This document shows positions 7,744 to 22,763 of a stretch of DNA of 51,262 bases, piece after piece; positions within the stretch are counted from its first letter, which is position 1, and the number at the start of each line of letters is the position of its first letter. Position numbers and translations under genes: made by a program. The stretch comes from Serratia marcescens. Lineage in GTDB: Bacteria > Pseudomonadota > Gammaproteobacteria > Enterobacterales > Enterobacteriaceae. Location of the stretch: assembly GCA_015548865.1 (NCBI GenBank), contig JADMXW010000030.1, positions 1 to 51,262 on the forward strand, read 5' to 3'. The notes under the pieces were generated by a model. It made no database searches and was not told the DNA's origin. It saw nothing but the letters and a program-made list of their open reading frames with translations.

Positions 7744-8018
7744 GTCTTTTACTCCGAATGCAAACAGGGGATGCAGTCTACCCGCATATTCGCCTGCAAA
7801 CAATTCAACTCCTCTACAATCGCGCTGTCCCTGCCGCCGCTTCTCATACTCTGGTTACCCCCAGTGAAAGCCATTTGATACCGATATCCAGAACATTATG
7901 TGCAATTACCGTGAGCCAGTTCCTTATTAAAGAAATAAAAGTGTTATTTATCCGGCAATAGCGTTAACGATCATGCTGTTATTGTCAAAACCAAAACACA
8001 ATAAAAAAAACAAAATGC

Positions 8019-8066
8019 TGGATCACATCAAATTTCACCTACTCATAATTCGGTATAATCTTTTCC
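8019..8066 (+). promoter_or_regulatory. frdABCD promoter with FNR-type site
   Basis: TGGATCACATCAAATTTCA at 8019 closely resembles the E. coli frdA FNR site TCGATCTCGTCAAATTTCA. A perfect TATAAT lies at 8054-8059. This puts a start site near 8066 and the FNR-like site about 41 bp upstream, the class II activator position. The remaining epmA-frdA gap (7744-8224) is AT-rich. It holds a leader of about 160 nt before frdA and no gene I can support. Confidence 0.75.
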
Positions 8067-8224
8067 ACACAAAAAATATAGGTTTAGCTATTCTTAATAT
8101 GTGTCCGCGAATTGCTTTAAATATCGATGAATTACAGAAAGCGTTCGATGGGAAATAGAGATTAAGAAATAGAATATATTATTTTTAATTTAACTTAATT
8201 AACTTTAGTAACTGGAGGAGTGCA

Positions 8225-10021
8225 GTGCAAACCTTTAATGCCGATTTGGCCATTATCGGGGCCGGGGGCGCTGGTTTACGTGCGGCAATAGCTGCCGCTG
8301 AAGCTAATCCCCAACTGAAAATTGCGCTGATATCAAAAGTCTACCCAATGCGTAGCCACACCGTGGCCGCCGAGGGTGGTTCAGCCGCAGTCACTCAGGA
8401 TCACGATAGTTTTGATTTTCACTTCCACGACACCGTCGCAGGTGGCGATTGGCTCTGCGAGCAAGATGTCGTTGAACATTTTGTTCATCAATGTCCACAG
8501 GAGATGATCCAGCTAGAACAATGGGGTTGCCCTTGGAGCCGTAAACCCGACGGTTCCGTCAACGTCCGTCGTTTTGGCGGTATGAAAATTGAGCGCACCT
8601 GGTTTGCCGCGGATAAAACCGGCTTCCATATGCTGCACACCTTGTTCCAGACATCACTGAAATACCCACAAATCCAACGCTTTGATGAGCACTTTGTATT
8701 GGATATTCTGGTTGATGATGGTCAAGCGCGTGGCCTTGTCGCCATCAATATGATGGAAGGCTCACTGGTGCAAATCCGCGCTAACGCAGTGGTGCTGGCG
8801 ACCGGCGGTGCTGGCCGCGTTTACCGCTACAACACCAACGGCGGCATTGTCACCGGTGACGGAATGGGCATGGCGTTCCGCCACGGCGTAGCGCTGCGCG
8901 ATATGGAATTCGTGCAATACCACCCGACCGGTTTGCCGGGCTCTGGCATCTTGATGACCGAAGGTTGCCGCGGTGAAGGCGGTATCATGGTCAACAAAGA
9001 CGGCTATCGCTATCTGCAAGATTACGGCATGGGGCCAGAAACGCCGCTCGGTGAACCTAAAAACAAATACATGGAGTTGGGCCCACGCGATAAAGTGTCG
9101 CAAGCCTTCTGGCACGAATGGCGTGCAGGCCGTACAGTTTCCACCCCGCTGGGCGACGTGGTTTACCTCGATCTGCGCCATCTGGGTGAGAAAAAGTTGA
9201 AAGAGCGTCTGCCGTTTATCTGCGAATTGGCAAAAGCTTATGTTGGCGTCGATCCGGTGAAAGAACCGATTCCGATTCGCCCTACGGCGCACTACACCAT
9301 GGGGGGTATCGAAACCAATCAGGATTGCGAAACCACCATTAAAGGCCTGTTCGCGGCTGGCGAATGTTCCTCGGTTGGTCTGCACGGTGCTAACCGTCTT
9401 GGTTCAAACTCACTGGCGGAGTTGGTGGTGTTTGGTCGTATGGCAGGGGAAAATGCGGTGCGCCGTGCGCAAGAAGCCGCGCCCGCCAACGGCAGTGCTC
9501 TGGATGCACAGACTCGCGATATTGAGCAGCGCCTGCATGATCTGATGAACCAGGAAGGCACCGAGAGCTGGGCGAAAATCCGCGATGAAATGGGCATGTC
9601 AATGGAAGAAGGCTGCGGTATCTATCGCACCACTGACCTGATGCAGAAAACCGTGGATAAACTCGCTGAACTGAAAGAACGCTTCAAGCGCGTTAAAATT
9701 CACGACCATTCCAGTGTGTTCAATACCGATTTGCTCTACAACATCGAATTGGGCCACAGCCTGGATGTCGCTGAATGTATGGCGCACTCTGCTATCAACC
9801 GTAAAGAATCACGCGGCGCACACCAGCGTCTGGACGAAGGTTGCACTGAGCGTGATGACGTTAATTTCCTGAAGCATACGCTGGCGTATTACAATCCGAA
9901 CGGCACACCGCGTCTGGCTTATGGTGACGTGAAGATCACCACGCTGCCACCGGCAAAACGCGTGTACGGTGCCGAAGCGGAAGCCCAGGAAAAGAACAAG
10001 AAGGAGCAAGCGAATGGCTGA
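8225..10021 (+). CDS. frdA: Fumarate reductase flavoprotein subunit
   Basis: FrdA is the catalytic subunit of the menaquinol:fumarate reductase, which reduces fumarate to succinate as the terminal step of anaerobic respiration on the cytoplasmic face. At 598 residues it is near family length. It shows the dinucleotide-binding [15 protein letters not shown] (about 12-26), His45 in [10 protein letters not shown] for covalent FAD attachment, and the active-site segments [21 protein letters not shown] and [10 protein letters not shown]. The start is GTG with GGAGGAG upstream. frdB overlaps its end by 8 bp. The long leader and FNR-type promoter fit oxygen-regulated expression. Confidence 0.98.
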
Positions 10022-10751
10022 GTTAGCTACCCTGAAAATGGAAGTCATGCGCTATAACCCAGAAACGGACAAGGCACCACACATCGAGACGTTCGAAGTG
10101 CCTTACAGCCGGGAAACGTCCCTGCTGGATGCGTTGGGTTACATCAAAGACAACCTGGCACCGGATCTCTCTTACCGTTGGTCCTGCCGTATGGCTATCT
10201 GTGGCTCCTGCGGCATGATGGTGAATAACGTGCCGAAGCTGGCGTGCAAAACCTTTTTGCGCGACTACGCCACCAGCGGCATGAAGGTGGAAGCGCTGGG
10301 TAACTTCCCAATCGAACGCGATCTGGTGGTCGATATGACCCACTTTATCGAAAGTCTCGAAGCTATTAAGCCTTACATCATCGGCAACAACAAAACGCCT
10401 GCTGACGGAGCTAATAAGCAGACTCCGGCACAGATGGCGAAATACCATCAGTTCTCCGGTTGCATCAACTGCGGCCTGTGCTATGCCGCATGCCCACAGT
10501 TTGGTCTTAATCCTGAGTTTATCGGCCCAGCAGCTATCACGCTGGCGCACCGTTACAATCTGGATAACCGCGACCACGGCAAGAAAGAGCGTATGCCGCA
10601 ACTGAACGGTAAAAACGGCGTCTGGAGTTGTACCTTTGTCGGTTACTGCTCAGAAGTGTGTCCGAAGCATGTTGATCCTGCCGCTGCCATTCAGCAAGGT
10701 AAGGTCGAAAGTGCCAAGGACTTCATGATCGCTATGCTGAAACCGCAATGA
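10014..10751 (+). CDS. frdB: Fumarate reductase iron-sulfur subunit
   Basis: FrdB carries three Fe-S clusters that pass electrons from menaquinol in FrdCD to FrdA. The 245-residue protein shows ligands for the 2Fe-2S cluster (Cys58, Cys63, Cys66, Cys78), the 4Fe-4S cluster (Cys150, Cys153, Cys156) and the 3Fe-4S cluster (Cys160, Cys206, Cys212 with Cys216 completing the pattern). The ATG at 10014 overlaps the end of frdA and has AAGGAG in front. A longer reading from 9969 would run inside frdA and is not needed. Confidence 0.98.
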
Positions 10752-10762
10752 GGGAGGCAACA

Positions 10763-11158
10763 ATGACAACCAAGCGTAAAGCATACGTTCGCAGCATGCC
10801 TGCAAGCTGGTGGCAACGGCTCGGGTTTTATCGCTTTTACATGCTGCGCGAAATGACCGCCGCCCCGGCGGTATGGTTCAGCATTGTGCTGATCTATGGT
10901 GTTTTTTCGTTGAAACACGGCGCAGAAGGTTGGGCCGGATTTGTCAGCTTCCTGCAAAATCCGCTGGTGCTGCTACTCAACGTCGTTGCGCTAGTGGCGG
11001 CGTGCATTCACACCAAATCCTGGTTTGAACTGGCGCCAAAAGCCAGCATCATTATCGTAAAAGATGAAAAAATGGGGCCAGAGCCTGTTATCAAAGGGCT
11101 GTGGGCTGTAACCGTCATTGTCACGCTGGCTATTCTCGCCATCGCGTTACTATTCTGA
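10763..11158 (+). CDS. frdC: Fumarate reductase membrane anchor subunit C
   Basis: FrdC is one of two hydrophobic anchors that bind menaquinone and hold FrdAB to the inner membrane. It has 131 residues, the same as E. coli, with three predicted membrane helices. Conserved segments are [18 protein letters not shown] near the N-terminus, FELAPKA, and [16 protein letters not shown] before the last helix. The start at 10763 has GGGAGG upstream; a start at 10748 would overlap frdB and lacks family support. It lies 11 bp after frdB and 15 bp before frdD. Confidence 0.97.
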
Positions 11159-11173
11159 TTGGAGGGGAACAAC

Positions 11174-11530
11174 GTGATTAATCCAACACCAAAACGTTCC
11201 GATGAGCCTCCCTTCTGGGGGCTGTTCGGTGCCGGTGGGATGTGGAGCGCCATTTTTTCGCCGGTGATTATCCTGCTGGTGGGCGTGCTGCTGCCGCTGG
11301 GGATGTTCCCCGACGCACTAAGCTACGAACGTATCATAGCTTTCTCCCAGAGCCTTATTGGGCGGCTGTTTCTGCTGCTGATGATTATTCTGCCGATCTG
11401 GTGTGGTTTGCACAGATTGCATCACCTGATGCATGACCTGAAAATCCACGTTCCGGCAGGGAAATGGGTATTCTACGGTCTGGCAGCCATCCTGAGTGTG
11501 GTGACAGTTATCGGAGTAGTGACATTGTAA
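11174..11530 (+). CDS. frdD: Fumarate reductase membrane anchor subunit D
   Basis: FrdD is the second membrane anchor of fumarate reductase, with three helices. The 118-residue protein aligns with E. coli FrdD (119 aa) throughout, with one residue fewer in the FPDALSYER segment. It carries [16 protein letters not shown] and [23 protein letters not shown]. The start is GTG at 11174 behind GGAGGGGAA. In E. coli ampC follows and the frd terminator acts as its attenuator; here ampC is absent and a plain terminator ends the operon. Confidence 0.97.
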
Positions 11531-11561
11531 TCAACCATTAGTGCCTACTACTTGTGTAGAG

Positions 11562-11603
11562 CCCCTGACTGGGTTAGCTATCCAATCTGGTCAGGGGTTT
11601 TTT
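11562..11603 (+). terminator. Rho-independent terminator of frdABCD
   Basis: CCCCTGAC (11562-11569) and GTCAGGGG (11590-11597) form a perfect 8-bp stem around a 20-nt loop, followed by TTTTTT. Confidence 0.93.
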
Positions 11604-11702
11604 ATGTGCCATTCACCATGACCACGGCTTCCCTCACCTTCCGTTCTGTCTGCCTTTCCCGCAGTTTCTGTGTTGCCCTCTTTTGTATCACCACAAACGT
11701 TT

Positions 11703-11719
11703 TGCACCAAATTGGTGAT
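11703..11719. promoter_or_regulatory. NtrC-like enhancer site
   Basis: TGCACCAAATTGGTGAT matches the NtrC dyad TGCACC-N5-GGTGCA at 11 of 12 fixed positions. It is centred about 99 bp upstream of the start site predicted from the sigma-54 promoter at 11783, in the range of the E. coli glnA enhancers. A second, looser TGCA-rich stretch (TGCAATTTTGCA, 11729-11740) follows; its spacing is too short for a standard site. Confidence 0.65.
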
Positions 11720-11782
11720 CACTTATCGTGCAATTTTGCATAGCTAATCTAGCTAAACAACGAAAATTCAACTAAATACAGA

Positions 11783-11799
11783 TTGGCACTCTTATTGCA
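11783..11799 (+). promoter_or_regulatory. Sigma-54 (RpoN) promoter
   Basis: TTGGCACTCTTATTGCA matches the -24/-12 consensus YTGGCACG-N4-TTGCW except at two less conserved bases. GG (11785-11786) and GC (11797-11798) are spaced by exactly 10 bp as required. The predicted transcription start is near 11810, about 34 nt before the first gene of the operon. Confidence 0.75.
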
Positions 11800-11837
11800 G
11801 TTTCATTTTATGAAACTAAAGTCCCATTTTATGAGAC
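11800..11837. promoter_or_regulatory. Twin 17-bp operators, probable IclR-family binding sites
   Basis: GTTTCATTTTATGAAAC (11800-11816) is a perfect inverted repeat with a 3-bp centre. GTCCCATTTTATGAGAC (11821-11837) is a near copy starting 21 bp later, two helical turns apart. They begin directly after the sigma-54 -12 element and end 6 bp before the regulator's ATG, so they span the start site and leader. Tandem short dyads are typical of IclR-family operators, which suggests autoregulation and operon repression. Confidence 0.7.
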
Positions 11838-11843
11838 CACCCA

Positions 11844-12608
11844 ATGTCAATATTAGAAACGACAGCCAAGATCCTCACCCTGATGGTGGAGCGGCAAAGC
11901 GGAGTTCGTATCAGTGATGTCATCACCCATCTTGGAATGCCAAAAAGCACAGCATCACGCGTCATGAGCCAGTTGGAATCTTATGGCTATCTTGAAAAAG
12001 ATGATGTGCACGGCACCTTTTTACCGGGTCCACTGATTATGTCAGCCTCCCATTTAGTCAACCGTCAAATCTCTCTGAGCGATCATGTGGATGCCGCATT
12101 GCGCAATCTGTGTGAACGTACGGGGTATACCGGCTATATCTCTATACTCGATAACCAGGAAATTCTGGTGCTACGCGTTATCCATGGCCGTCAGGCGCTC
12201 CCTATCATCACTTGGCCTGGCTCACGCTCCCCAGCCTGGGGTACATCCACTGGACGCGCATTGCTGGCGCGTTTCTCTGATCGGCAATTGCATGATTTTT
12301 TTGCCAGCCCACAGGTGGTATCCCAACTCAGCGGCACCACGCAGGATGTCAGCATGCTAGCGGCCTCTGTGGCGCGCACCAGAGATGCAGGTTATGCCAC
12401 GGCGGTCAATGAATCCGTGGCCGATACAGCTTCGGTAAGCTGTGCAGTAGGCGATCCAACCACCCAAGAAGCCATAGCGTTCTGCCTGTCATTTCCACAG
12501 CAGTTGGCCACTGCCGAAGAGTTGCAACGGATCGCAACATTACTGAAAGAGGCCGCCATCACCATTGCCCGTAAAACCGGCGATACCCAGGTGTCGGGCT
12601 CGTTTTAA
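11844..12608 (+). CDS. IclR-family transcriptional regulator
   Basis: This 254-residue regulator has an N-terminal winged helix-turn-helix (about 1-65, with RISDVITHLGMPKSTASRVM as the recognition region). A C-terminal IclR-type effector-binding domain (about 80-245) includes SPAWGTSTGRALLA and VADTASVSCAV. The ligand is unknown. It is the first gene of a six-gene operon and lies 34 bp before the OPT transporter. It is not the glyoxylate regulator IclR, which is encoded at 42393-43226. Twin dyads in its leader suggest that it represses its own operon, released by a peptide-related or amino-acid inducer (inference). The ribosome-binding sequence is weak and overlaps the second operator. Confidence 0.88.
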   Translation: MSILETTAKILTLMVERQSGVRISDVITHLGMPKSTASRVMSQLESYGYLEKDDVHGTFLPGPLIMSASHLVNRQISLSDHVDAALRNLCERTGYTGYISILDNQEILVLRVIHGRQALPIITWPGSRSPAWGTSTGRALLARFSDRQLHDFFASPQVVSQLSGTTQDVSMLAASVARTRDAGYATAVNESVADTASVSCAVGDPTTQEAIAFCLSFPQQLATAEELQRIATLLKEAAITIARKTGDTQVSGSF

Positions 12609-12641
12609 TTTGTCGTCACTGTCTATGCCAGGAGAGTCACC

Positions 12642-14264
12642 GTGAGTCAAACCCTCGATTCAGAAACACAACCGGATAAACACGAGCAACATCCACGTGC
12701 TTTTGCCCCAACCACGCTGCTATTGTTGCTGGTACTCAGCATCTTTGGTGCCGTGATCGGCGTCCAATTGCTCACGACATTGGGCGTGACGCCAAATACG
12801 TCGATTATTGGTGCAATGGCGGCGATGATCATCGCGCGAATTCCATTGCAATGCTTCGCCCGTTTTCGTTCTATCCATATCCAAAACCTAGCCCAGAGCG
12901 CCACCTCTTCCGCAACCTTTGGTGCAGCAAACTCGTTGTTGCTCCCCATTTCTATACCCTGGTTGTTTGGTCATGAGGAAATGGTGATGCCGATGTTTAT
13001 CGGCGTGGCGTTAGCCATGTTGCTGGATGCCTGGCTGCTGTATCGCCTGTTCAACACCCGTATTTTCCCAGCTGAGGGCGCCTGGCCTCCCGGTATTGCA
13101 GCAGCGGAATCCATCAAGGCAGGCGATCAAGGTGGGAAACAAGCCGCACTGCTCGGCACTGGCATAGCCATCGGCGCGATCGGCTCCTGGTTTAAATTTC
13201 CCATGGCTGCGCTGGGCACTGCCTTTATCGGCAACATATGGGCGCTGGGAATGCTGGGCGTGGGCTTTCTGTTGCGCGGTTATTCACAACCGCTGTTCAA
13301 TATTGATATCAATAAGCTCTATATTCCACACGGCGTCATGGCAGGTGCGGGTGTAATTGCCCTATTCCAAATCATCAAATTGATCCGTAAAAGCAAAAGT
13401 AATGCGCCCGTGGCCCATAACGCCAAGGACGAATTGCTGCCGGAAGCACAGAGTGAACAAATCGGAAAAACCATTCGTTTCGGCGCGTTAGGTTTTATGG
13501 CGATTTCGGTAATGATCGCATTGAGTAGCGGACTGTATGCTCATTTGTCGCTACCGTGGCTCATCGCCTTTATGGTCTACGCGGCATTCGCTGCTTTTCT
13601 GCATGAGATGATCGTAGGTCTCGCTGCCATGCACTCCGGTTGGTTTCCGGCATTTGCAGTGGCATTAATCACCTTGCTTATCGGTATCCTCATCGGATTC
13701 CCACCTGAAGCACTGGCCATGTTGTGCGGTTTCTCCGCCGCAACTGGCCCGGCCTTTGCTGACATGGGATATGACCTGAAAGCTGGTTGGATTTTGCGGG
13801 GTAAAGGCGTGCATTCCCGCTTTGAACTGGAAGGCCGTCGCCAGCAACTTTTCGCAGCCATGTTAGCATTTGTTGTCGCCATGCCGGTCGTGCTGTTTAT
13901 CTTCCGCGACTATTTCTCTCAGGGCTTGGTGCCGCCCGTCGCCAAAGTGTATGTCGCCGCAATCAACGCCGGGGTATCGATGGATATCGCCAAATCACTG
14001 CTTATCTGGGCCATCCCAGGGGCCATTATCCAATTGATTGGTGGCCCAAGTCGCCAAATGGGTGTGTTGTTGGCAACCGGTTTGCTGATCAATAACCCGT
14101 TGGCAGGTTGGGCTGTCATGATCGGTATCACCATTCGTACCCTTGTTTTGCGCATAGGCGGCGACCCCATCCGTAACAAACTCGAAGTCTTGGCTGCGGG
14201 TCTTATCGCAGGCGATGCCTTGTTCAGTTTCTTCAATTCCGTCCTGCCAGGCGGGAAAAAGTAA
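12642..14264 (+). CDS. OPT/YSL-family transporter
   Basis: This 540-residue integral membrane protein has a hydrophobicity pattern of well over ten helices. OPT-type signatures include the motif IYIPHGVMAGAGVIALFQ and the segment EGAWPPGIAAAESIKAGD. OPT transporters are proton-coupled importers of oligopeptides, or in the YSL branch of metal chelates. Bacterial members are rarely characterised, so the substrate is open. The start is GTG with AGGAGAG upstream. Its place ahead of a peptidase E homologue and a racemase-like protein points to a small peptide or amino-acid conjugate as cargo (inference). Confidence 0.85.
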   Translation: MSQTLDSETQPDKHEQHPRAFAPTTLLLLLVLSIFGAVIGVQLLTTLGVTPNTSIIGAMAAMIIARIPLQCFARFRSIHIQNLAQSATSSATFGAANSLLLPISIPWLFGHEEMVMPMFIGVALAMLLDAWLLYRLFNTRIFPAEGAWPPGIAAAESIKAGDQGGKQAALLGTGIAIGAIGSWFKFPMAALGTAFIGNIWALGMLGVGFLLRGYSQPLFNIDINKLYIPHGVMAGAGVIALFQIIKLIRKSKSNAPVAHNAKDELLPEAQSEQIGKTIRFGALGFMAISVMIALSSGLYAHLSLPWLIAFMVYAAFAAFLHEMIVGLAAMHSGWFPAFAVALITLLIGILIGFPPEALAMLCGFSAATGPAFADMGYDLKAGWILRGKGVHSRFELEGRRQQLFAAMLAFVVAMPVVLFIFRDYFSQGLVPPVAKVYVAAINAGVSMDIAKSLLIWAIPGAIIQLIGGPSRQMGVLLATGLLINNPLAGWAVMIGITIRTLVLRIGGDPIRNKLEVLAAGLIAGDALFSFFNSVLPGGKK

Positions 14265-14288
14265 TCACGCAATATCAGGAAAATTTTT

Positions 14289-15227
14289 ATGAGCTTACAA
14301 CAAACATTACAGGTCTTTGAATTACTCGACAGTGCTTATGCTAGTGGTGAAAAAGTAAAAACCCTGTTGGCCGAATACCCACATATCGACGTGAGAGTGA
14401 AAGCCGTAAGTGGCCCAAGAGGCAGCACTGATTTTGTCAAAATCGTGATTCCAGGTACGCACGGTAAACGTGGCGGGGGTAACGCCCCCACACTGGGCAT
14501 CGTGGGCCGTCTGGGTGGCATTGGCGCACGTCCGGGCCGTATCGGACTGGTATCAGATGCAGATGGTGCCGTTGCAGCTATCGCCAGCGCACTAAAGTTG
14601 GCAGAAATGCAACGTCAGGGCGACAGCTTGCCGGGCGATGTGATTGTCACCACCCATATCTGCCCTGACGCGCCAACACGCCCTCATGAACCGGTCGATT
14701 TTATGGATTCACCCGTGGAAACCGAGGACATGAATGAGCAAGAAGTATCCGATGAGATGGATGCCGTGCTCTCGATTGATACCACCAAGGGCAACCGCAT
14801 TATCAATCACAAAGGTTTCGCAATCTCTCCCACAGTAAAAGAAGGTTATATCCTTCGTGTCTCGGACGATTTACTGCGCGTAATGGAAATGACTACCGGA
14901 CTGTTGCCGGTAACCTTTCCTATCACCACGCAGGATATCACCCCTTATGGTAACGGTGTTTATCACCTCAACAGTATTCTGCAACCGTCTATCGCCACCA
15001 CCGCACCGGTGGTGGGCGTTGCGATTACCAGTGTCAGTGCAGTGCCTGGATGCGGTACTGGCGCCAGCCATGAAACGGATATCGCGCTGGCATGCAAATT
15101 TGCTGTGGAAACAGCCAAAGAGTTTACGCGTGGAACCTGCCAGTTCTTTGATAAAAAAGAATATCAGCGCCTGCTGGATCTCTATGGTTCGCTAGCGCAT
15201 TTACAAAAACGCCAGCCAGGAGTGTGA
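14289..15227 (+). CDS. DUF1177-family protein
   Basis: This 312-residue soluble protein is of the DUF1177 type, whose function is not established. The most distinctive segments are PGTHGKRGGGNAPTLGIVG (about 56-74), GRLGGIGARPGRIGLVSDADGA, and a central acidic segment around MDSPVETEDMNEQEVSDEMDA. A potential metal or acid/base cluster (THICPDAPTRPHE) and a late VPGCGTGASHETDIALACKF are also visible. There is no signal peptide or membrane helix. It sits 24 bp after the transporter and 1 bp before the aroM-like gene, so tight co-expression is expected. The Gly-rich, Asp/His-bearing pattern would suit a hydrolase or amidase, but that is speculation. Confidence 0.8.
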   Translation: MSLQQTLQVFELLDSAYASGEKVKTLLAEYPHIDVRVKAVSGPRGSTDFVKIVIPGTHGKRGGGNAPTLGIVGRLGGIGARPGRIGLVSDADGAVAAIASALKLAEMQRQGDSLPGDVIVTTHICPDAPTRPHEPVDFMDSPVETEDMNEQEVSDEMDAVLSIDTTKGNRIINHKGFAISPTVKEGYILRVSDDLLRVMEMTTGLLPVTFPITTQDITPYGNGVYHLNSILQPSIATTAPVVGVAITSVSAVPGCGTGASHETDIALACKFAVETAKEFTRGTCQFFDKKEYQRLLDLYGSLAHLQKRQPGV

Positions 15228-15228
15228 C

Positions 15229-15909
15229 ATGGCTATCCAGAAAATCGGTACGTTGACCATCGGTCAGGCACCTCGACGTGATATCACGCCGATACTGGAA
15301 GCGGCCCTTCCCAAGCACGTTACTTGCCTGCATGCTGGCGTGCTTGATGGCTTGGACGATGACGCGATTGCGGTACGTTTTACGCCACACTCCGGAGATG
15401 CATTGTTGACTTCACGTCTGTTGGATGGACGTGCTGTAGTGATGGGCAAACCTGCCGTCGGGGCAGCGTTACAGCAAAAGATCGATGCGTTAGAAGCACA
15501 GGGATGCGAGCTCATCGCCATCCTGTGTACGGGTGAGTTTCACGGTTTGCACAGTAAAAAAGCCTGGCTCGTCGAGCCAGATCGGATTTTACCGCCAACG
15601 CTGAATGCCCTAGTGGGATCACGTCGCGCTGGGATACTGGTACCACTCGCAGCGCAAGTAGCCAGTGAGTTGGAGAAATGGCGAGGTGCCGTGCAAACAC
15701 CGGTGTTTGCCGTAGCGTCCCCCTATACCGCCAGCGAAAGCGAAGTGGCCACCGCCGCCCGCTCACTGGAAGCACAAGGCGCAGAGGTGATTCTGACCGA
15801 TTGTATGGGCTATACCGATTGGCATCAGGCGGTTTGTACACGCCATGTAACCGTGCCCGTCGTGTTATCCAACAAATTGCTGGCGGATCTGCTGCGTAAT
15901 TTGTTGTAA
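15229..15909 (+). CDS. AroM-family protein
   Basis: This 226-residue cytosolic protein has the AroM fold family pattern: LTIGQAPRRDITPIL at the N-terminus, CTGEFHGL in the middle, and a C-terminal AEVILTDCMGYT plus VPVVLSNKLLADLL. E. coli AroM (225 aa) is an orphan of the tyrR regulon without a known activity. The family resembles Asp/Glu/hydantoin racemases, and the Cys in CTG and in TDCMGYT are candidates for a two-cysteine active site. The start lies 1 bp after the DUF1177 stop, with AGGAGTG in front. Its operon neighbour at 16627 is also racemase-like, so the two may act on related substrates or as a pair. Confidence 0.82.
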   Translation: MAIQKIGTLTIGQAPRRDITPILEAALPKHVTCLHAGVLDGLDDDAIAVRFTPHSGDALLTSRLLDGRAVVMGKPAVGAALQQKIDALEAQGCELIAILCTGEFHGLHSKKAWLVEPDRILPPTLNALVGSRRAGILVPLAAQVASELEKWRGAVQTPVFAVASPYTASESEVATAARSLEAQGAEVILTDCMGYTDWHQAVCTRHVTVPVVLSNKLLADLLRNLL

Positions 15910-15921
15910 AAGGAGAAAATC

Positions 15922-16614
15922 ATGAATGTGCTGTTATTGAGCAACTCCGTACTCCCCGGTAGTGGATATTTAGAATATGCACTGCCGGTATTGAAAACCC
16001 ATCTCGGTAAGGGACGCAACGTGGTGTTTATCCCTTTTGCTGGTGTGACACAGAGCTGGGATGCCTACACCGAGAAAGTCCGTTTGGCATTAGCAGAACT
16101 GGCGCTGGAGATCACCGGCATTCACACCCTGAGCGATCCACTCGCAGCGATTACCGCAGCAGACATTGTCATGGTCGGGGGTGGCAACACCTTTAATCTG
16201 CTGAAACATTGCCGTGAGCGTGGTTTGCTTGCGCCTATCCGCCAGGCAGTGAAACGCGGTGCGCTCTACGTTGGCTGGAGTGCCGGTGCCAACCTGGCCT
16301 GCCCCACCATCCGCACCACCAATGACATGCCTATTGTCGATCCCGGCGGATTAGAAGCCCTGAACCTGGTGCCATTACAAATCAACCCTCACTTCACTAA
16401 TGTGCTACCCGCTGGTCATCAGGGAGAAACGCGAGAGCAACGGTTACGTGAACTGCTGGTGATTGATCCCGCGTTGGAGGTGATCGGTTTACCCGAAGGC
16501 AATTGGATCTCGGTACAACATGGCCATGCACAATTAGGAGGTAACAATCCCACATTGTTGTTTAAAGCCAACTGCGCGGCAATTCCGCTGACTGCCAATC
16601 ACCGTTTTTTCTGA
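15922..16614 (+). CDS. pepE: Dipeptidase E (alpha-aspartyl dipeptidase), family S51
   Basis: Peptidase E hydrolyses dipeptides with an N-terminal aspartate (Asp-X), giving free Asp. The 230-residue protein has Ser120 in VGWSAGAN, Asp135 (TTNDMPIVD) and His157 (INPHFTN), the same positions as the enteric enzyme. The N-terminal LLLSNS and [10 protein letters not shown] motifs are typical of this cytosolic glutamine-amidotransferase-like serine peptidase. AAGGAG precedes the ATG. In E. coli pepE stands alone between metH and lysC; here it is in a transport operon, 12 bp from each neighbour, which ties the operon to aspartyl peptides or an analogue. Confidence 0.92.
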
Positions 16615-16626
16615 CGGAGGGAGATT

Positions 16627-17253
16627 ATGCTGGGCATTATTCGGGTATTAACCCATGATGATCCCCACTTTGTGGAAGAGCATGGGCGTTTAATCCAACA
16701 AGAGTACGGTATCACCTCTGTCAGTCGTTGTATTGCCGATCAACCCAGGGGGATTTTTGATCTTACCAGCGAAGCGTTGGCCGTGCCGAAAATTGTGGCG
16801 TTAGGGAAAACGCTGGAAGCGCAGGGGTGTAGGGCGTTGTTTCTCAGTTGTGCCGCCGATCCGGGATTAACATCACTGCGAGAGGCCGTTTCACTGCCGG
16901 TGATCAGCGCGGGCAGTGCCTGCGCCAGCATTGCCGCCATGCTCAAACGCCCCGTAGCCGTGATGGGGATTGGCGAAACGGCTCCGACACCATTTCGTGT
17001 ATTGTTGGGCGAGAACGTACGCTATGCGCGACCGCAAGGGGTAACAAACACCACGGATTTACTGGCACCTCACGGACGCGACAGTGCACTGGCCTGCGCC
17101 GAAGGCTTGTATCAGGAAGGCGTGGAAGTGATCGCATTCTCCTGCACCGGCTTTTCCACCATAGCGCTGGCAGATACCATCCGAACTCGGCTGGGTAACA
17201 TTGCCATCGACGCAGTCAGCGCCGCGGGACTGTTTGCCAGCCAGCTCACGTAA
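16627..17253 (+). CDS. Asp/Glu/hydantoin racemase-family protein
   Basis: This 208-residue protein belongs to the cofactor-independent two-cysteine racemase superfamily. Candidate catalytic cysteines are Cys75 (FLSCAADPG) and Cys173 (AFSCTGFS), each in the expected small-residue context. Members racemise aspartate, glutamate or hydantoins, or act as maleate isomerases or decarboxylases, so the exact reaction is open. GGAGGGAG precedes the ATG, 12 bp after pepE, and a strong terminator follows. In context it could convert a D- or L-amino acid or hydantoin released by the preceding enzymes (inference). Confidence 0.82.
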   Translation: MLGIIRVLTHDDPHFVEEHGRLIQQEYGITSVSRCIADQPRGIFDLTSEALAVPKIVALGKTLEAQGCRALFLSCAADPGLTSLREAVSLPVISAGSACASIAAMLKRPVAVMGIGETAPTPFRVLLGENVRYARPQGVTNTTDLLAPHGRDSALACAEGLYQEGVEVIAFSCTGFSTIALADTIRTRLGNIAIDAVSAAGLFASQLT

Positions 17254-17277
17254 GTCAGGGAAAACCAGACGACCTCC

Positions 17278-17307
17278 AAACGGCTTGCCTACGCGAGCCG
17301 TTTTTTT
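17278..17307 (+). terminator. Rho-independent terminator of the OPT operon
   Basis: AAACGGCT (17278-17285) and AGCCGTTT (17296-17303) form a perfect stem around a 10-nt loop and run into TTTT. It closes the six-gene operon. Between here and 17510 I see no gene. Confidence 0.92.
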
Positions 17308-17509
17308 CGTGCTGATCAACCCAGTATTTTATTTTTAAACATAAAGAACACCGCCCCCAATAAACAGAGACCAACTCAGATAAAATCGGTGCGGAACGGC
17401 GCCTTCAAAATGACCATTGACAGAGCGTTGGCTGCACTCGCTATCCAGCCCATCCCTGAGCCTCACCGCTCACAAGGTCGTCGCAAACGCGGTTCAAAAC
17501 GTGAGCATT

Positions 17510-17539
17510 TTTCCTGCAACTCGAATTATTTTGGATATA
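17510..17539. repeat. ERIC end fragment
   Basis: TTTCCTGCAACTCGAATTAT followed by TTTGGATATA matches the terminal 30 bp of the ERIC elements in this window. No partner arm is visible nearby, so it is a truncated remnant. It lies just downstream of the entericidin stop. Confidence 0.65.
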
Positions 17540-17562
17540 GCACAATCTTTGCAGACAGCTCT

Positions 17563-17694
17563 CTATTGCGCACTGCGTTGAATGGCTTTCCCCCCCGCCT
17601 CAACATCCTGACCAATACCACGAGTAGTATTGCAAGCGGTCAACGCGGAGAGCATCAGTAATGAGGCAAGAATAAGCACGCTTTTCTTGAACAT
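17563..17694 (-). CDS. Entericidin A/B-family small lipoprotein
   Basis: This 43-residue gene reads MFKKSVLILASLLMLSALTAC, then NTTRGIGQDVEAGGKAIQRS and AQ. The lipobox LTAC puts the lipidated Cys at 21, and the mature CNTTRGIGQDVEAGG is the hallmark of entericidins EcnA/EcnB, envelope lipoproteins of a bacteriolytic toxin-antidote module. AAGGAAAATAACC precedes the ATG. E. coli has ecnA-ecnB directly after efp. Here a single copy lies 5.3 kb away from efp, separated by cargo genes. I cannot tell A from B: the 22-residue mature part is short and no second copy is visible. Confidence 0.88.
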   Translation of the reverse strand: MFKKSVLILASLLMLSALTACNTTRGIGQDVEAGGKAIQRSAQ

Positions 17695-17860
17695 GGTTAT
17701 TTTCCTTCTCAAGGGAGAATAAAAGGGAAAGTAAAAATGTCGAGACGATCTCTATCGCCTTTAGTAAGCGTAGCCAATCCTGCTGAGATAAGCGTTTTTT
17801 GTTCCGGTTTCACTAAAAATAGGCGGCACACTGGCATTCACGCTTATCAGGAGCAACGTC

Positions 17861-18337
17861 ATGACACTGTCAACGCCACAGAATGCAGATCTTGTTATCA
17901 CCCGTGTATTGGATGCCCCCCGACATGCAATATGGCGTGCCTGGTCAGATCCTGAGTGGTTCAAAACCTGGTGGGGCCCCAAACCGGGAACAACTGAAGT
18001 TATCGCACTCAACCTGCAACCTGGAGGGGCATTTCATACCTTGATTCAGGGGCCTGGTGAATTTCGCAGCGAACTCATCGGATGTTTTTTGGAGGTGATT
18101 CCCCACTCTCGTATTGTGTTCACTTCTATGCTAACAGCAGGTTGGCGCCCGGCCACGCCCACATTGGCGTTTACCACACTCATTTCGTTATCTGACTATG
18201 CCTTGGGAAGCTGCTATACCGCTCAGGTTATCCATCAGGACGAAATCACGCGTGAACAACATGAAAAATCAGGTTTTTTTGAAGGATGGAACAGAGCTAT
18301 CAGTCAATTGGACGAGGTCGCCTGTACACTACGCTAA
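17861..18337 (+). CDS. SRPBCC / AHSA1-domain protein
   Basis: This 158-residue cytosolic protein starts DLVITRVLDAPRHAIWRAWSDPEWFKTWWGP, the signature of the AHSA1-like branch of the SRPBCC (START/Bet v1-like) fold. It ends with HEKSGFFEGWNRAISQLDE, also typical. These proteins have a hydrophobic cavity; many are uncharacterised and some are linked to ArsR regulators or chaperones. CAGGAG precedes the ATG. The EamA gene lies 74 bp downstream on the same strand, with an imperfect GC-rich inverted repeat near 18344-18374 between them. I can assign the fold but not a function. Confidence 0.85.
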   Translation: MTLSTPQNADLVITRVLDAPRHAIWRAWSDPEWFKTWWGPKPGTTEVIALNLQPGGAFHTLIQGPGEFRSELIGCFLEVIPHSRIVFTSMLTAGWRPATPTLAFTTLISLSDYALGSCYTAQVIHQDEITREQHEKSGFFEGWNRAISQLDEVACTLR

Positions 18338-18411
18338 CAGACAAGGGGGGATGGCTTATAGGCCATATTCCCCCTATGATGGAAAACTGATCTCTTTTAT
18401 TTAGATATGTA

Positions 18412-19351
18412 ATGCGACGTTATTTTTCTGCTTCTCCCCAGCCAATACTGGGTATAAAACCTCAGGAGTGGGCGCTGATCCTGATCACTCTGGTGTGGGG
18501 AACCACTTTTTTAGTGGTTCATTTAGCAATGCAACACAGTGGCCCCCTGTTTTTTGTCGGATTACGCTTCACTACGGCCGGCGTTATAAGTCTTCTGGTC
18601 TTTAGACGCGTACTGTCGGGACTGACGATTCAAGAGTGCTATGCGGGTTTCGCCATAGGAACCAGTATTCTGCTGGGCTACGGCCTACAAACTTACGGTC
18701 TGCAAACCATCACCAGCAGTCAGTCTGCGTTTATTACCGCGCTGTATGTCCCTTTGGTACCGCTGCTGCAATGGCTGGTGCTACGGCGCCGTCCCGGCGT
18801 CATGAGTTTGGTAGGGATTGTTTTCGCTTTTGTCGGCCTGATATTGCTCGCCGGACCCGACGCGGGCCATTTGAGCATGAGCCAAGGCGAATGGGCTACG
18901 CTGATCAGTGCACTGGCGATTGCTGCCGAGATCATTCTTATTGGTCATTTTGCCGGAAAAGTCGATGTGCGCCGTGTGACTACCGTACAGTTGCTGACGG
19001 CGGGATTGCTATCACTGCTGCTCATGCCTGCAACCGGTGAGTCTCTGCCTGCATTTTCTTGGACTTGGTTGCTAGGCGGCCTTGGCCTCGGTGCTGCAAG
19101 CATTGTGATCCAACTGACCATGAACTGGGCACAAAAGTGCCGTATCACCTACGCGTGCCACCGTCATCTATGCCAGCGAGCCCGTGTGGGCAGGTATTGT
19201 CGGTCGTGTTGCTGGCGACCGTTTACCCGGTTTGGCCATCGTGGGCGCCGCATTGATTGTTATTGGGGTACTTGTCAGCGAATTGAAACCCACCCAGTGG
19301 CGACGTAGCAAAAAAGTGCCGGCGTGCGGCACAGAGAGTGAAGGGGTTTAA
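18412..19351 (+). pseudogene. EamA/DMT-family transporter, frameshifted
   Basis: The first 242 codons encode a drug/metabolite transporter with EamA repeats (LVWGTTFLVVHLAMQHSGPL; TITSSQSAFITALYVPLVPL) and most of the ten helices. Just after NWAQK, near 19137, the frame is lost: the original frame continues as Cys/Arg-rich nonsense to 19308. A different frame immediately resumes family sequence AVSPTRATVIYASEPVWAGI and GLAIVGAALIVIGVLVSELK and ends at TAA 19349-19351. A net shift of one base (one removed or two added) near the CAAAAGTG stretch restores a complete protein of about 312 residues. This is either a real recent inactivation or a sequencing error. Confidence 0.85.
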
Positions 19352-19384
19352 CATGGGGTGTGAGCGCCTGAACATCCTCGCGTG

Positions 19385-20557
19385 TTAAGACGGCACCGCA
19401 GGAAAGCCCTGCTGTTTGGCAGTCAGCACCACGATCAGCGTCGCCATCAGCAGCACTAAAAGCGCTGGAGAGAATGCCGCAACGCCCAGGCGGTCCAGCA
19501 ACAACCCACCGAGGATACCACCGCCTGCGATCGCCATGTTCCAAGCCGTCACCAGCATCGCTTGCGCCACATCGGCCGCATCTCCGGCTGTCTTGGCAAT
19601 GGCGGTTTGAAACAACGTCGCCGCACCGCCAAATGCCAGTCCCCAAATCGCCACTGCTGTATAAACCACGACAGACATATCACTTGCCACACCAAGTGCC
19701 AGCGCAGACAGACCGAATAACACCGTACTGGTAAGCGTCAATGCACGCAAATGACGGTCAATCATAACACCGATGATCCAGATACCTAGAAACGAAGCGA
19801 TGCCAAACACCAGCAGCACCACATCCGTCCGATCAACCATGCCTGCCGCGGCCAGAAACGGTGCGATATAGGTGTAAAGGATGTTATGCGCCAACACGAA
19901 GGACAATACTACGAACAGCACCGGACGTACCCCAGAGATGATAAACACAGACCCTAACGGCAACCGCTTGCCCACAGGTTGCCCTGCAAAGTCGGGAACC
20001 TGAAAACGTACCCATAGCATAAGCAGTACCGCCAATAGACTCATGAGGCCGAAACACATCCGCCAGCCTACCAGATTGCATAAAAACGTTCCTGCAGGTA
20101 CGCCGAGCGAGAGCGCCAGGGGAGTGCCGACCATGGCGATAGCAATGGCGCGCCCCTTCTGATGGTCGGGTACCATACGCGCCGCGTAACCTGCCAGCAA
20201 GGCCCATAGCAACCCGGCAGATACCCCCGCCAGAAAACGCGCCACCATCGTGAGCATATAGCTGTCGGAGAATGTCGTGACGGTATTCGCGATCGCGAAC
20301 CCCGCAATGGTCAACAGCAGTAACGAGCGCCGGCGCACACCTTGTGTGGCAGCCGTCAGTGGGATCGCAGCAACCAGTGAGCCGATAGCATAGAAGGTGA
20401 CAGTTTGGCCAACCCATGCTTCTGATACCGCAAGTCCTTGCGCCATCTGCGGTAACAGCCCCGCAGGCAGGGCTTCGGTCAAGATAGTGATAAAAGCCGC
20501 CGTAGCCAACGCTAGCAGCGAAGCCAGAGGTAAACGCTCCTGTTGGCGGGATGTCAT
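19385..20557 (-). CDS. MFS transporter, DHA1-like drug/metabolite antiporter
   Basis: This 390-residue major facilitator has twelve predicted helices and the DHA1-type pattern ITILTEALPAGLLPQMAQGL in helix 1. It contains RFLAGVSAGLLWALLAGYAARMV in the fourth and fifth helices and the antiporter-like motif VGTPLALSLGVPAGTFL. It resembles AraJ/YdhP-type exporters; the substrate is unknown. Its ATG overlaps the stop of the esterase gene (ATGA, 20554-20557), so the two are translationally coupled. The likely control gene is the divergent LysR at 21876. Confidence 0.88.
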   Translation of the reverse strand: MTSRQQERLPLASLLALATAAFITILTEALPAGLLPQMAQGLAVSEAWVGQTVTFYAIGSLVAAIPLTAATQGVRRRSLLLLTIAGFAIANTVTTFSDSYMLTMVARFLAGVSAGLLWALLAGYAARMVPDHQKGRAIAIAMVGTPLALSLGVPAGTFLCNLVGWRMCFGLMSLLAVLLMLWVRFQVPDFAGQPVGKRLPLGSVFIISGVRPVLFVVLSFVLAHNILYTYIAPFLAAAGMVDRTDVVLLVFGIASFLGIWIIGVMIDRHLRALTLTSTVLFGLSALALGVASDMSVVVYTAVAIWGLAFGGAATLFQTAIAKTAGDAADVAQAMLVTAWNMAIAGGGILGGLLLDRLGVAAFSPALLVLLMATLIVVLTAKQQGFPAVPS

Positions 20558-21747
20558 CTTGCTTCCTCCAGCACACCGTACACCGCGTCACGCAGGTCGG
20601 CCACGAAACGGCCCGACATACCTTCGTACAGTGTATTGGTAAAAGCCACTACACTCAGCCCCTGTGCACGATCCACGAACCAGGCATGGCCATAAGCCCC
20701 CCCCCAGCGCCAGGTTCCCAGTGATTCTGGCGAGGCCGCCAGTTCAGGATCGCGTAGAACAGAAAAGCCTAGGCCAAAGCCAAACCCTGGCGCATTGGGT
20801 AGCTCCAGTCCATGAGTTTGGTCGCGCCCCATCTCCTCAATCAGTTCACTGGGCAACAATGCACCGCCACCCCGACGCAAGGTTTCGAGCAGGCAAAGGA
20901 TGTCTCTGGCCGTACCCGCCATGCCTGCACCACCTGAAGGAAAGGCTTCAGCGTTGAAAATACGCGCCGGGCTATAAGCAATACCGACCGCCCCCTCAAA
21001 GGCAGAAACAGTTTCGCCTTCCCCCAACTTATGGGGCTGCGGTGTGTCATTCACATAGGCCGTTGCCACACGTTGCGGATCGTTAACGACGAAGCCGGTA
21101 TCCACCATACCCAGCGGACCGGTCACAAGTTCACGTACCGCCTTGTCCAGTGACGTGCCATGAACACGCGCAATCAAGGCTCCCAGCACATCCGTCGCCA
21201 ACGAATACCCCCAGGCTGTGCCCGGCGCATACAGCAGCGGCACACTGGCAAGGCGACGCAGATTCTCATCCAGAGTGATGCCGGAAGCGTCCATACCATC
21301 CGATACCCCAGCCCGTGCGTAGGAACCGTGCGCATCAGTCTCGAAGAAGCGGTAGCTGAGACCCGCAGTATGACTGAGCAACTGCCGTACGGTGATCTGC
21401 GCCGCTGAGCCATTGGTCAACCGAGGCTGGAATTCGGGCAGCCAGCGAGAGATGTCGTCATCCAGACCAAGTTGTCCCTGAGCCACCAGAACCAACGCCG
21501 CAGTCGACACGATGGGTTTACTCACCGAAGCCAACCGAAAGATTATACCTGGCTCCATCGGATGTAAGTGTTCACGATCGGCCCAGCCAGCGGCCTGCTG
21601 GTAAATTAACTCACCGTTGTGTGCCACTAATACAACGCTCCCCACCAGACGATGTGTATCCAGCGCCTGCTGGGTAACATCCTGAATGCGGGTGGAGAGA
21701 TGCGCAGAGAGAACGCCTGAGCGCAGGGAAAAGAGAGGAGTTGTCAC
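20554..21747 (-). CDS. Family VIII esterase / class C beta-lactamase-like serine hydrolase
   Basis: This 397-residue hydrolase has the class C beta-lactamase fold. Ser74-x-x-Lys77 (SVSK) is the nucleophile motif and Tyr181 (YSL) the general base, spaced almost exactly as in EstB-type esterases (S75, K78, Y181) and unlike the YxN of AmpC. A late WGGAYGHAWFVD segment fits the third box. No signal peptide is seen, favouring a cytosolic esterase over a periplasmic beta-lactamase. I choose GTG 21747 because AAGGA lies at the right distance; ATG 21786 is an alternative without a clear ribosome site. The gene is coupled to the MFS gene. Confidence 0.85.
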   Translation of the reverse strand: MTTPLFSLRSGVLSAHLSTRIQDVTQQALDTHRLVGSVVLVAHNGELIYQQAAGWADREHLHPMEPGIIFRLASVSKPIVSTAALVLVAQGQLGLDDDISRWLPEFQPRLTNGSAAQITVRQLLSHTAGLSYRFFETDAHGSYARAGVSDGMDASGITLDENLRRLASVPLLYAPGTAWGYSLATDVLGALIARVHGTSLDKAVRELVTGPLGMVDTGFVVNDPQRVATAYVNDTPQPHKLGEGETVSAFEGAVGIAYSPARIFNAEAFPSGGAGMAGTARDILCLLETLRRGGGALLPSELIEEMGRDQTHGLELPNAPGFGFGLGFSVLRDPELAASPESLGTWRWGGAYGHAWFVDRAQGLSVVAFTNTLYEGMSGRFVADLRDAVYGVLEEAR

Positions 21748-21875
21748 GGTAAAGTCCTTGGTTTCATCAGTTGTTAAATCGGGCATGCTTTGACGATAGA
21801 GAACTTGTGACTCAAGAAAAAGACGGATACAGTTCCTTGGTATGCGGAACAAAATGTCCGCAATTGGAGAGCAAT

Positions 21876-22763
21876 ATGGACAGCCTTAACGGTTTTGTGG
21901 TGTTCGTACAGGTGGCGGAAACGCGCAGCTTCGTGGCAGCAGGACGGCTGCTGGGCGTATCCGCATCGGCCGTCGGCAAGAGCGTGGCGCGTCTGGAAGA
22001 AAAGCTGGGCGTGCGCCTGTTCCACCGCAGCACGCGTAACATCACACTGACGGCCGAAGGCACACTGTTTCTGGAACGCTGTCGGCGCATTCTGTCTGAA
22101 ATCGAAGCCGCAGAGCAGGATCTACAGGCCAACGGCACACCGCGCGGACGCTTGCGGGTAAGCCTGCCTCTGGTCAGCACGCTGGTATTACCGGTACTCA
22201 GTGAATTTATGCATGCCTATCCTGAGATCGAGCTGGATCTCGACTTCACCGACCAGATTGTCAATGTAATCGAAGAAGGTTTTGATGCTGTAGTGCGCAC
22301 AGGCGAGCCCAACGACTCACGTCTCACCGCTCGTCGGCTTGGTACATTCAGTTCGCTACTGGTCGCTTCTCCAGACTATCTGGCACGGCATGGCACACCA
22401 CAGGTGCCCACCGATCTTCTGCGACACCGATGCCTGCACTATCGCTTTCCTCACAGCGGAAAGCTCGAGCCTTGGGCGCTGCGTCTTGCCCCTGGTGAAC
22501 CGCAGTTGCAACTGCCAACGGCGATGATTTGCAACAACATTGAGACGCGTGTGTGCTTCGCACTGCAAGGATTGGGCATCGCCTATTTGCCGGACTTCTC
22601 TATCCGCAACCTGTTGGCCGAAGGCCGGTTACAGCCCATTCTGGTCGACCATGTGGAACGCACAGGCGTTTTCCACGTACTGTGGCCAGCGAGCAAGCAT
22701 CCGTCACCGAAAGTACGCGTGCTGGTGGACTTCCTTTGCGAACGGGTATTTCCTGGTTCGTAA
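21876..22763 (+). CDS. LysR-family transcriptional regulator
   Basis: This 295-residue LTTR has an N-terminal winged HTH (FVQVAETRSFVAAGRLLGVSASAVGKSVARLEEKLGVRLF, about 8-47), then the linker helix and a substrate-binding domain (about 90-290). It resembles the large subgroup near DmlR/YafC. GGAGAGCAAT precedes the ATG. It is divergent from the esterase-MFS pair with a 128-bp intergenic region, the classic LTTR arrangement, so it probably controls that pair and itself. The inducer is unknown. Confidence 0.92.
   Translation: MDSLNGFVVFVQVAETRSFVAAGRLLGVSASAVGKSVARLEEKLGVRLFHRSTRNITLTAEGTLFLERCRRILSEIEAAEQDLQANGTPRGRLRVSLPLVSTLVLPVLSEFMHAYPEIELDLDFTDQIVNVIEEGFDAVVRTGEPNDSRLTARRLGTFSSLLVASPDYLARHGTPQVPTDLLRHRCLHYRFPHSGKLEPWALRLAPGEPQLQLPTAMICNNIETRVCFALQGLGIAYLPDFSIRNLLAEGRLQPILVDHVERTGVFHVLWPASKHPSPKVRVLVDFLCERVFPGS

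Follow-up and report, generated by a model that had tools for sequence, protein, structure and literature searches.

A six-gene DUF1177-AroM-PepE operon with nitrogen-type promoter motifs in Serratia marcescens: a candidate system for scavenging cyclic amides of amino acids

The 51,262-nucleotide stretch of Serratia marcescens DNA analyzed here (contig JADMXW010000030.1; hereafter the window) carries an operon of six co-directional open reading frames (ORFs; 11844-17253, forward strand) encoding an IclR regulator, an OPT importer, a DUF1177 protein, AroM, peptidase E (PepE) and a hydantoin-racemase-like protein. The operon itself is a confirmed observation. Its function is a more tentative matter: we propose, as a possibility somewhat short of even, that it scavenges nitrogen from a cyclic amide of amino acids, most likely a cyclo(Asp-X) diketopiperazine. 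The initial annotation had placed six tightly spaced genes between a sigma-54 promoter motif and a terminator, and the ORFs, the motif (at 11784) and the terminator (at 17278) were all recovered; the intergenic spacers measure 33, 24, 1, 12 and 12 nt, in agreement with the earlier values except for the first, previously given as 34. The OPT protein belongs to a transporter family known for uptake (PF03169, 94.1 bits against a cut-off of 25.8), and a genome search located one copy each of DUF1177, S51 peptidase and AroM, all inside the operon.

Linkage of OPT, DUF1177, AroM, PepE and racemase genes across genomes, the check that the initial annotation had set for itself, was borne out by comparative analysis. 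We assembled 119 DUF1177 loci, near-duplicates included, comprising 80 relatives (the best 80 of at least 571 confirmed, ordered by similarity to the window), six of seven plasmid hits, 32 genome stretches and the window, and labelled genes located within 8 kb on the DUF1177 strand. Labels for DUF917, M29, hydantoinase, PucR, M20 and AlbA/AlbB derive from single-seed profiles, with representatives checked against Pfam or PDB. The most frequent neighbors were AroM (100 loci), OPT (81), an IclR-type regulator (63) and a racemase (50), followed by M29 aminopeptidase (37), PucR-type regulator (34), DUF917 (30), PepE (28), M20 (7), hydantoinase A/B (4) and an AlbA/AlbB-like, or cyclodipeptide oxidase, pair (4). 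PepE and M29 never occur together. Because PepE is present as a single copy in this 5.39-Mb genome, its proximity to DUF1177 in 28 loci is far above chance, an excess to be read in the light of the selection of 80 loci for similarity to the window and of the shared descent of the loci. In the phylogeny of 117 DUF1177 proteins, PepE linkage takes at least eight changes, five of which are forced by well-supported branches. An ABC peptide-permease pair lies somewhere in the examined stretch in 20 of the 38 loci devoid of OPT, and one locus (L004) carries both transporter types. More distant arrangements include a haloarchaeal plasmid layout of ABC transporter, DUF917, DUF1177, AroM, M29-like aminopeptidase, racemase and AstE-like protein, and an alphaproteobacterial metagenome-assembled genome with a hydantoinase A/B fusion. 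DUF1177 is an uncommon family: among evenly drawn genomes it was detected in 3 of 398 from the window's own phylum and in 33 of 299 from that of a Brevibacillus genome, Bacillota. The 29 matching Bacillota genomes used (G546, G616 and G692 were left out, and the Brevibacillus genome, G399, was counted as L020) yielded AroM in 19 loci, racemase in 16, DUF917 in 14, PucR-type regulator in 13, M29 in 12 and OPT in 10.

Conserved promoter motifs support nitrogen control of the operon. The sequence TGGCAC-N5-TTGC at 11784-11798 is the sole exact sigma-54 match within the window; on its own this motif proves little, since nine matches with one mismatch occur in the window against 7.0 expected, but its conservation upstream of IclR in related operons raises it above chance. 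Ten of the 58 upstream regions examined have a TGG[CT]A-N6-TTGC match 5' of the IclR gene, nine by the strict pattern and one, L086, by a looser one (L002 from Pantoea, L003, L004, L005, L009, L010, L024, L086, L087 and the window), 59-74 nt from IclR in the nine for which the distance is available. All ten are PepE-type operons; near-matches in L006, L007 and L012 were left out of this count, and the other 48 regions, including about 18 PepE-type operons of other lineages, showed no match to either pattern. Upstream of the motif lies an NtrC-like site whose score of 15, computed against a consensus that we take to be that of NtrC, was reached by none of 200 shuffles of its own region, the best sites in 12 other regions scoring 13-15. 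Across 13 chosen regions, the best 17-bp sites agree at 180 of 221 positions (mean 137 and maximum 145 in 200 shuffles), with 0 to 5.5% of shuffles reaching the observed score region by region, a test that is partly post hoc because the choice of the 17-mer followed the alignment and drew on 13 of the 58 regions. The first NtrC consensus, with another spacer, gave modest scores. Between promoter and start codon, the second of two repeats, CCATTTTATGAGAC-like, is recognizable in all 13 aligned upstream regions, and the pair probably constitutes an IclR operator. The -24/-12 motif with an upstream enhancer site is what an NtrC/sigma-54 operon would display at the level of motifs; the earlier claim of nitrogen regulation accordingly holds for conserved nitrogen-type elements in close relatives, and the nitrogen response itself is a prediction from them.

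Three of the encoded proteins were compared with enzyme families. The identity of PepE was upheld: it scores 331.3 bits against the cut-off of 156 for the dipeptidase equivalog NF003642, residues S120, H157 and E192 are invariant in 20 of 20 aligned rows (from 25 candidates), as an S51 aspartyl dipeptidase with a Ser-His-Glu triad would have them, and the residues that we take to be catalytic and Asp-binding, with their presumed numbering, are retained. A cyanophycinase assignment was rejected at 19.7 bits against the TIGR02069 equivalog cut-off of 126.6, and the cyanophycin-like dipeptide first suggested as a substrate is a weak option for this reason. The product of the last gene exceeds the PF01177 cut-off (67.2 against 31 bits) and holds the two catalytic cysteines of the Asp/Glu/hydantoin racemase superfamily, C75 and C173, invariant in 34 chosen non-redundant rows of 41. 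AroM matches PF07302 (246.5 bits) and the equivalog NF007788 (264.4 against 198), falls below the PF01177 cut-off (21.3 against 31) and has two invariant cysteines, C100 and C192, in 50 chosen non-redundant rows of 63; a sequence search of PDB returned weak ankyrin-type matches only. By its modelled fold and cysteine pair, AroM belongs to the same racemase superfamily, and it may share its type of activity.

The DUF1177 protein (PF06675, 454.9 bits) was examined through residue counts over 54 chosen non-redundant rows of 117 and a structure prediction using 51. The model adopts a predicted MH-fold di-zinc aminopeptidase fold with an apparently remodelled active site. H123, H226, D90 and D164 are invariant, as is R74, which lies within a GRLGG motif at the place expected for a His ligand, and the next strand has no conserved Glu pair in the 54 rows. 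This mapping, with D90 as the bridging Asp and a His ligand preceding it, relies on motifs that we presume to hold for the family. A sequence search of PDB provided nothing useful, a literature search found no measured activity for DUF1177 or AroM, and the available portions of PMC12915319 and PMC9503626 have no bearing on DUF1177. The initial annotation had tentatively assigned the unusual steps of the pathway to two unknown families. That picture changes with AroM as a two-cysteine racemase fold and DUF1177 as a metallopeptidase-like fold, so that both gain chemical suggestions; together with conserved residues and partner genes, the two families now have one hypothesis that can be tested by assay.

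In the scheme we favor, whose substrate, transport direction, DUF1177 reaction, step order and nitrogen response we infer, nitrogen limitation would act through the NtrC-like sites to switch on the sigma-54 promoter, with substrate control added by IclR bound in the interval that separates promoter from start codon. The OPT protein would bring the compound into the cell, DUF1177, as a metallopeptidase-fold amidohydrolase with an altered site, would open the ring and yield a linear dipeptide, an alpha-carbon would be epimerized by AroM, by the second two-cysteine racemase or by both so that D- or racemized forms become usable, and PepE would cleave the Asp-X dipeptide, releasing aspartate and X. 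The partner genes found in other loci (DUF917, hydantoinase A/B, cyclodipeptide oxidase and racemases of the hydantoin type) are the reason for favoring a cyclic amide, for example a diketopiperazine. Among cyclic amides, cyclo(Asp-X) is preferred because of the oxidase-like pairs in four loci, the partners published for oxidase clusters, known degraders of Asp-containing cyclic dipeptides and the fit of PepE to an Asp-X product. Andreas and Giessen (2024, PMC11055893), in the available part of their survey, describe enrichment of AroM, DUF917 and PF01177 racemases around cyclodipeptide oxidases, where OPT proteins, ABC transporters for dipeptides and peptidases are also found. We suggest that these clusters may be linked to diketopiperazine catabolism. 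The portions of the literature available describe bacteria degrading cyclo(Asp-Phe) and cyclo(Asp-Asp) and peptidases that failed on diketopiperazines when tried, and our literature search found no gene for a ring-opening diketopiperazine hydrolase. Paenibacillus chibensis DSM 329, Rhizobium sp. NA04-01 and Streptomyces flavovirens DSM 40062 are among the strains with demonstrated cyclo(Asp-Phe) degradation. A bolder proposal, which we hold to be rather doubtful, is that DUF1177 is this missing cyclic-dipeptide hydrolase, its rebuilt zinc site (Arg for the first His, with His123, His226, Asp90 and Asp164) opening peptidase-resistant diketopiperazine rings, that it is usually accompanied by AroM acting as a diketopiperazine epimerase, and that it belongs to a swappable import-and-digest module that has spread across bacteria and archaea.

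Several observations weigh against the cyclo(Asp-X) reading and its enzymology. The fold matches of DUF1177 include the transferrin receptor, which we take to be a non-peptidase member of the MH fold lacking activity, no column before D90 has His in at least 90% of the 54 rows, and profile comparison with four M42 sequences and one M28 sequence produced no significant match. The oxidase-like pairs are few, at 4 of 119 loci, and within 8 kb on the operon strand the window has no AlbA/AlbB-like match, such as the CDOA and CDOB genes that define a cyclodipeptide-oxidase cluster, nor any DUF917 or hydantoinase gene. PepE can serve linear peptides too, and the split between PepE and M29 largely tracks phylum. 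Nor is the DUF1177-AroM pairing strict: AroM is missing in 19 of the 119 loci and in 10 of the 29 even-draw Bacillota loci, seven of which have no typed partner at all, 28 of the 119 carry OPT and AroM with no PepE, M29, DUF917 or racemase, and among control genomes Sulfolobus acidocaldarius matched DUF1177 and not AroM (Haloferax volcanii matched both). Finally, in the part of PMC11055893 available, the authors propose a role for the oxidase clusters in purine metabolism or secondary-metabolite biosynthesis.

The main rivals to cyclo(Asp-X) are linear Asp peptides and hydantoin-like rings. Import and processing of an aspartyl compound, as initially annotated, finds partial support in the neighborhood, the promoter motifs and PepE; linear or iso-Asp peptides are possible substrates, and we prefer a cyclic amide. 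If linear Asp-X, iso-Asp or D-Asp peptides were imported and hydrolyzed, DUF1177 would be an extra peptidase and the racemases would convert D-Asp, an arrangement we consider rather unlikely: OPT and ABC peptide transporters and PepE, M29 and M20-family genes all accord with it, as does the cleavage of isoAsp-Leu by a Streptomyces dipeptidase E (PMC11078827, in the portion available), whereas the DUF917, hydantoinase and cyclodipeptide-oxidase partners and the need for two racemase-fold proteins are left unexplained and, in its cyanophycin form, the cyanophycinase score is far under the cut-off. Catabolism of hydantoin-like or purine-derived (allantoin-type) heterocycles to N-carbamoyl amino acids, which we judge unlikely, would account for the PucR-type regulators, DUF917, hydantoinase A/B and hydantoin-type racemases. 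It would also accommodate the M20-family genes, this family presumably including N-carbamoylases as well. Purine metabolism has been proposed for related clusters (PMC11055893, available part), but the transporters are peptide-type, peptidases of the PepE or M29 kind are common, and N-carbamoylase and ureidoglycolate genes, for which no targeted search was made, are not named in the five annotated plasmid regions.

Two further explanations involve the transported compound in other ways. Detoxification of a peptide antibiotic, with PepE cleaving an aspartyl-nucleotide or similar payload, draws on the capacity of S51 peptidases to confer microcin C resistance (PMC9239234, in the part available) and on the presence of one operon on a conjugative plasmid, yet the nitrogen-type promoter motifs, the racemase partners and the association of OPT with uptake make it very improbable. 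Uptake of a metal chelate by an OPT/YSL-like transporter, the peptide-like ligand then being recycled, is suggested by the OPT/YSL annotation of plasmid records; given the ABC peptide-permease pairs in loci without OPT and, again, the promoter motifs, we give it hardly any weight.

The complete six-gene operon is found on a Klebsiella plasmid typed as conjugative (L086), where its DUF1177 protein is 92.6% identical and it has several transposase genes to either side; a second relative is carried by a Sodalis plasmid of 450 kb. In the window, the region surrounding the operon (8000-22000) has no unusual base composition, and no near copy of the 5.8-kb operon stretch was found in E. coli genomes. 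Inspection by eye places the operon in an frdD-ecn interval, with an frdD-like ORF upstream and a small entericidin-like lipoprotein at 17560-17694 (reverse strand); in E. coli this interval presumably holds ampC, blc and sugE. Farther downstream are an EamA-like ORF, also assigned by eye (18412-19308, forward strand), whose last ~65 residues resemble a shifted frame and which is possibly a disrupted gene, and a 432-aa ORF (20554-21852, reverse strand) that by eye resembles a hydrolase of the serine beta-lactamase/esterase type and neighbors an MFS-like transporter. Certain DUF1177 clusters (L073) include EamA proteins as well. Elsewhere in the collection, DUF1177 is flanked by two ABC ATPase genes, LivG/LivF-like by eye and possibly a third transporter type (L145, L146, L147), or stands without typed partners in seemingly housekeeping surroundings, where its function may differ (L142, L143, L149, L150). 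The gammaproteobacterial genome G328 has two divergent copies (L154, L155), each near a PepE-like gene, DUF1177 is fragmented or has internal stops through decay or assembly errors in G414 (L157), G616 and G546, the OPT gene is broken into two ORFs in L031 and L071, and a second nitroreductase-like protein of ~290 aa is present in five clusters (L055, L063, L073, L074, L085).

Table 1. Coordinates of operon features in the window.
Feature	Position	Strand	Basis
NtrC-like enhancer site TGCACCAAATTGGTGAT	11703..11719	+	15/17 to assumed consensus
Sigma-54 (-24/-12) promoter motif TTGGCACTCTTATTGCA	11783..11799	+	exact match
Two repeats TTTCATTTTATGAAAC / TCCCATTTTATGAGAC, probable IclR operator between promoter and start codon	11801..11837	+	alignment
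IclR-family regulator	11844..12608	+	PF01614/PF09339
OPT-family transporter, taken as importer, 540 aa	12642..14264	+	PF03169
DUF1177 protein, predicted di-zinc aminopeptidase-like fold, remodelled site; proposed ring-opening amidase	14289..15227	+	PF06675
AroM, predicted Asp/Glu-racemase fold, invariant C100 and C192; proposed epimerase	15229..15909	+	PF07302, NF007788
PepE aspartyl dipeptidase (S51); S120, D135, H157, R171 and E192 kept	15922..16614	+	NF003642
Hydantoin/Asp/Glu racemase-like protein, invariant C75 and C173	16627..17253	+	PF01177
Intrinsic terminator	17278..17307	+	hairpin 17278-17303, 11 pairs, then T's

Among the closest known systems is peptidase E of PDB 1fy2, an aspartyl dipeptidase that we take to be from Salmonella: the window PepE matches it over the full length (344 bits) with conserved catalytic residues, and differs in being the sole S51 copy found in its genome and in sitting within a catabolic operon. 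The window AroM passes the equivalog score of E. coli AroM (NF007788/PRK10481), and the E. coli control genome matched AroM and not DUF1177. DUF1177 itself, compared with the M28/M42/M20 di-zinc aminopeptidases (1amp, TET), has no detectable sequence similarity to the four M42 sequences and one M28 sequence used, and it also departs from the group in having R74 where His is expected. At the level of gene clusters, the operon and its relatives share AroM, PF01177 racemase, OPT, ABC dipeptide transporters, DUF917 and peptidases with CDPS-less cyclodipeptide-oxidase clusters, which differ from them in that DUF1177 is absent from the available main text and the oxidase is missing from the window (PMC11055893).

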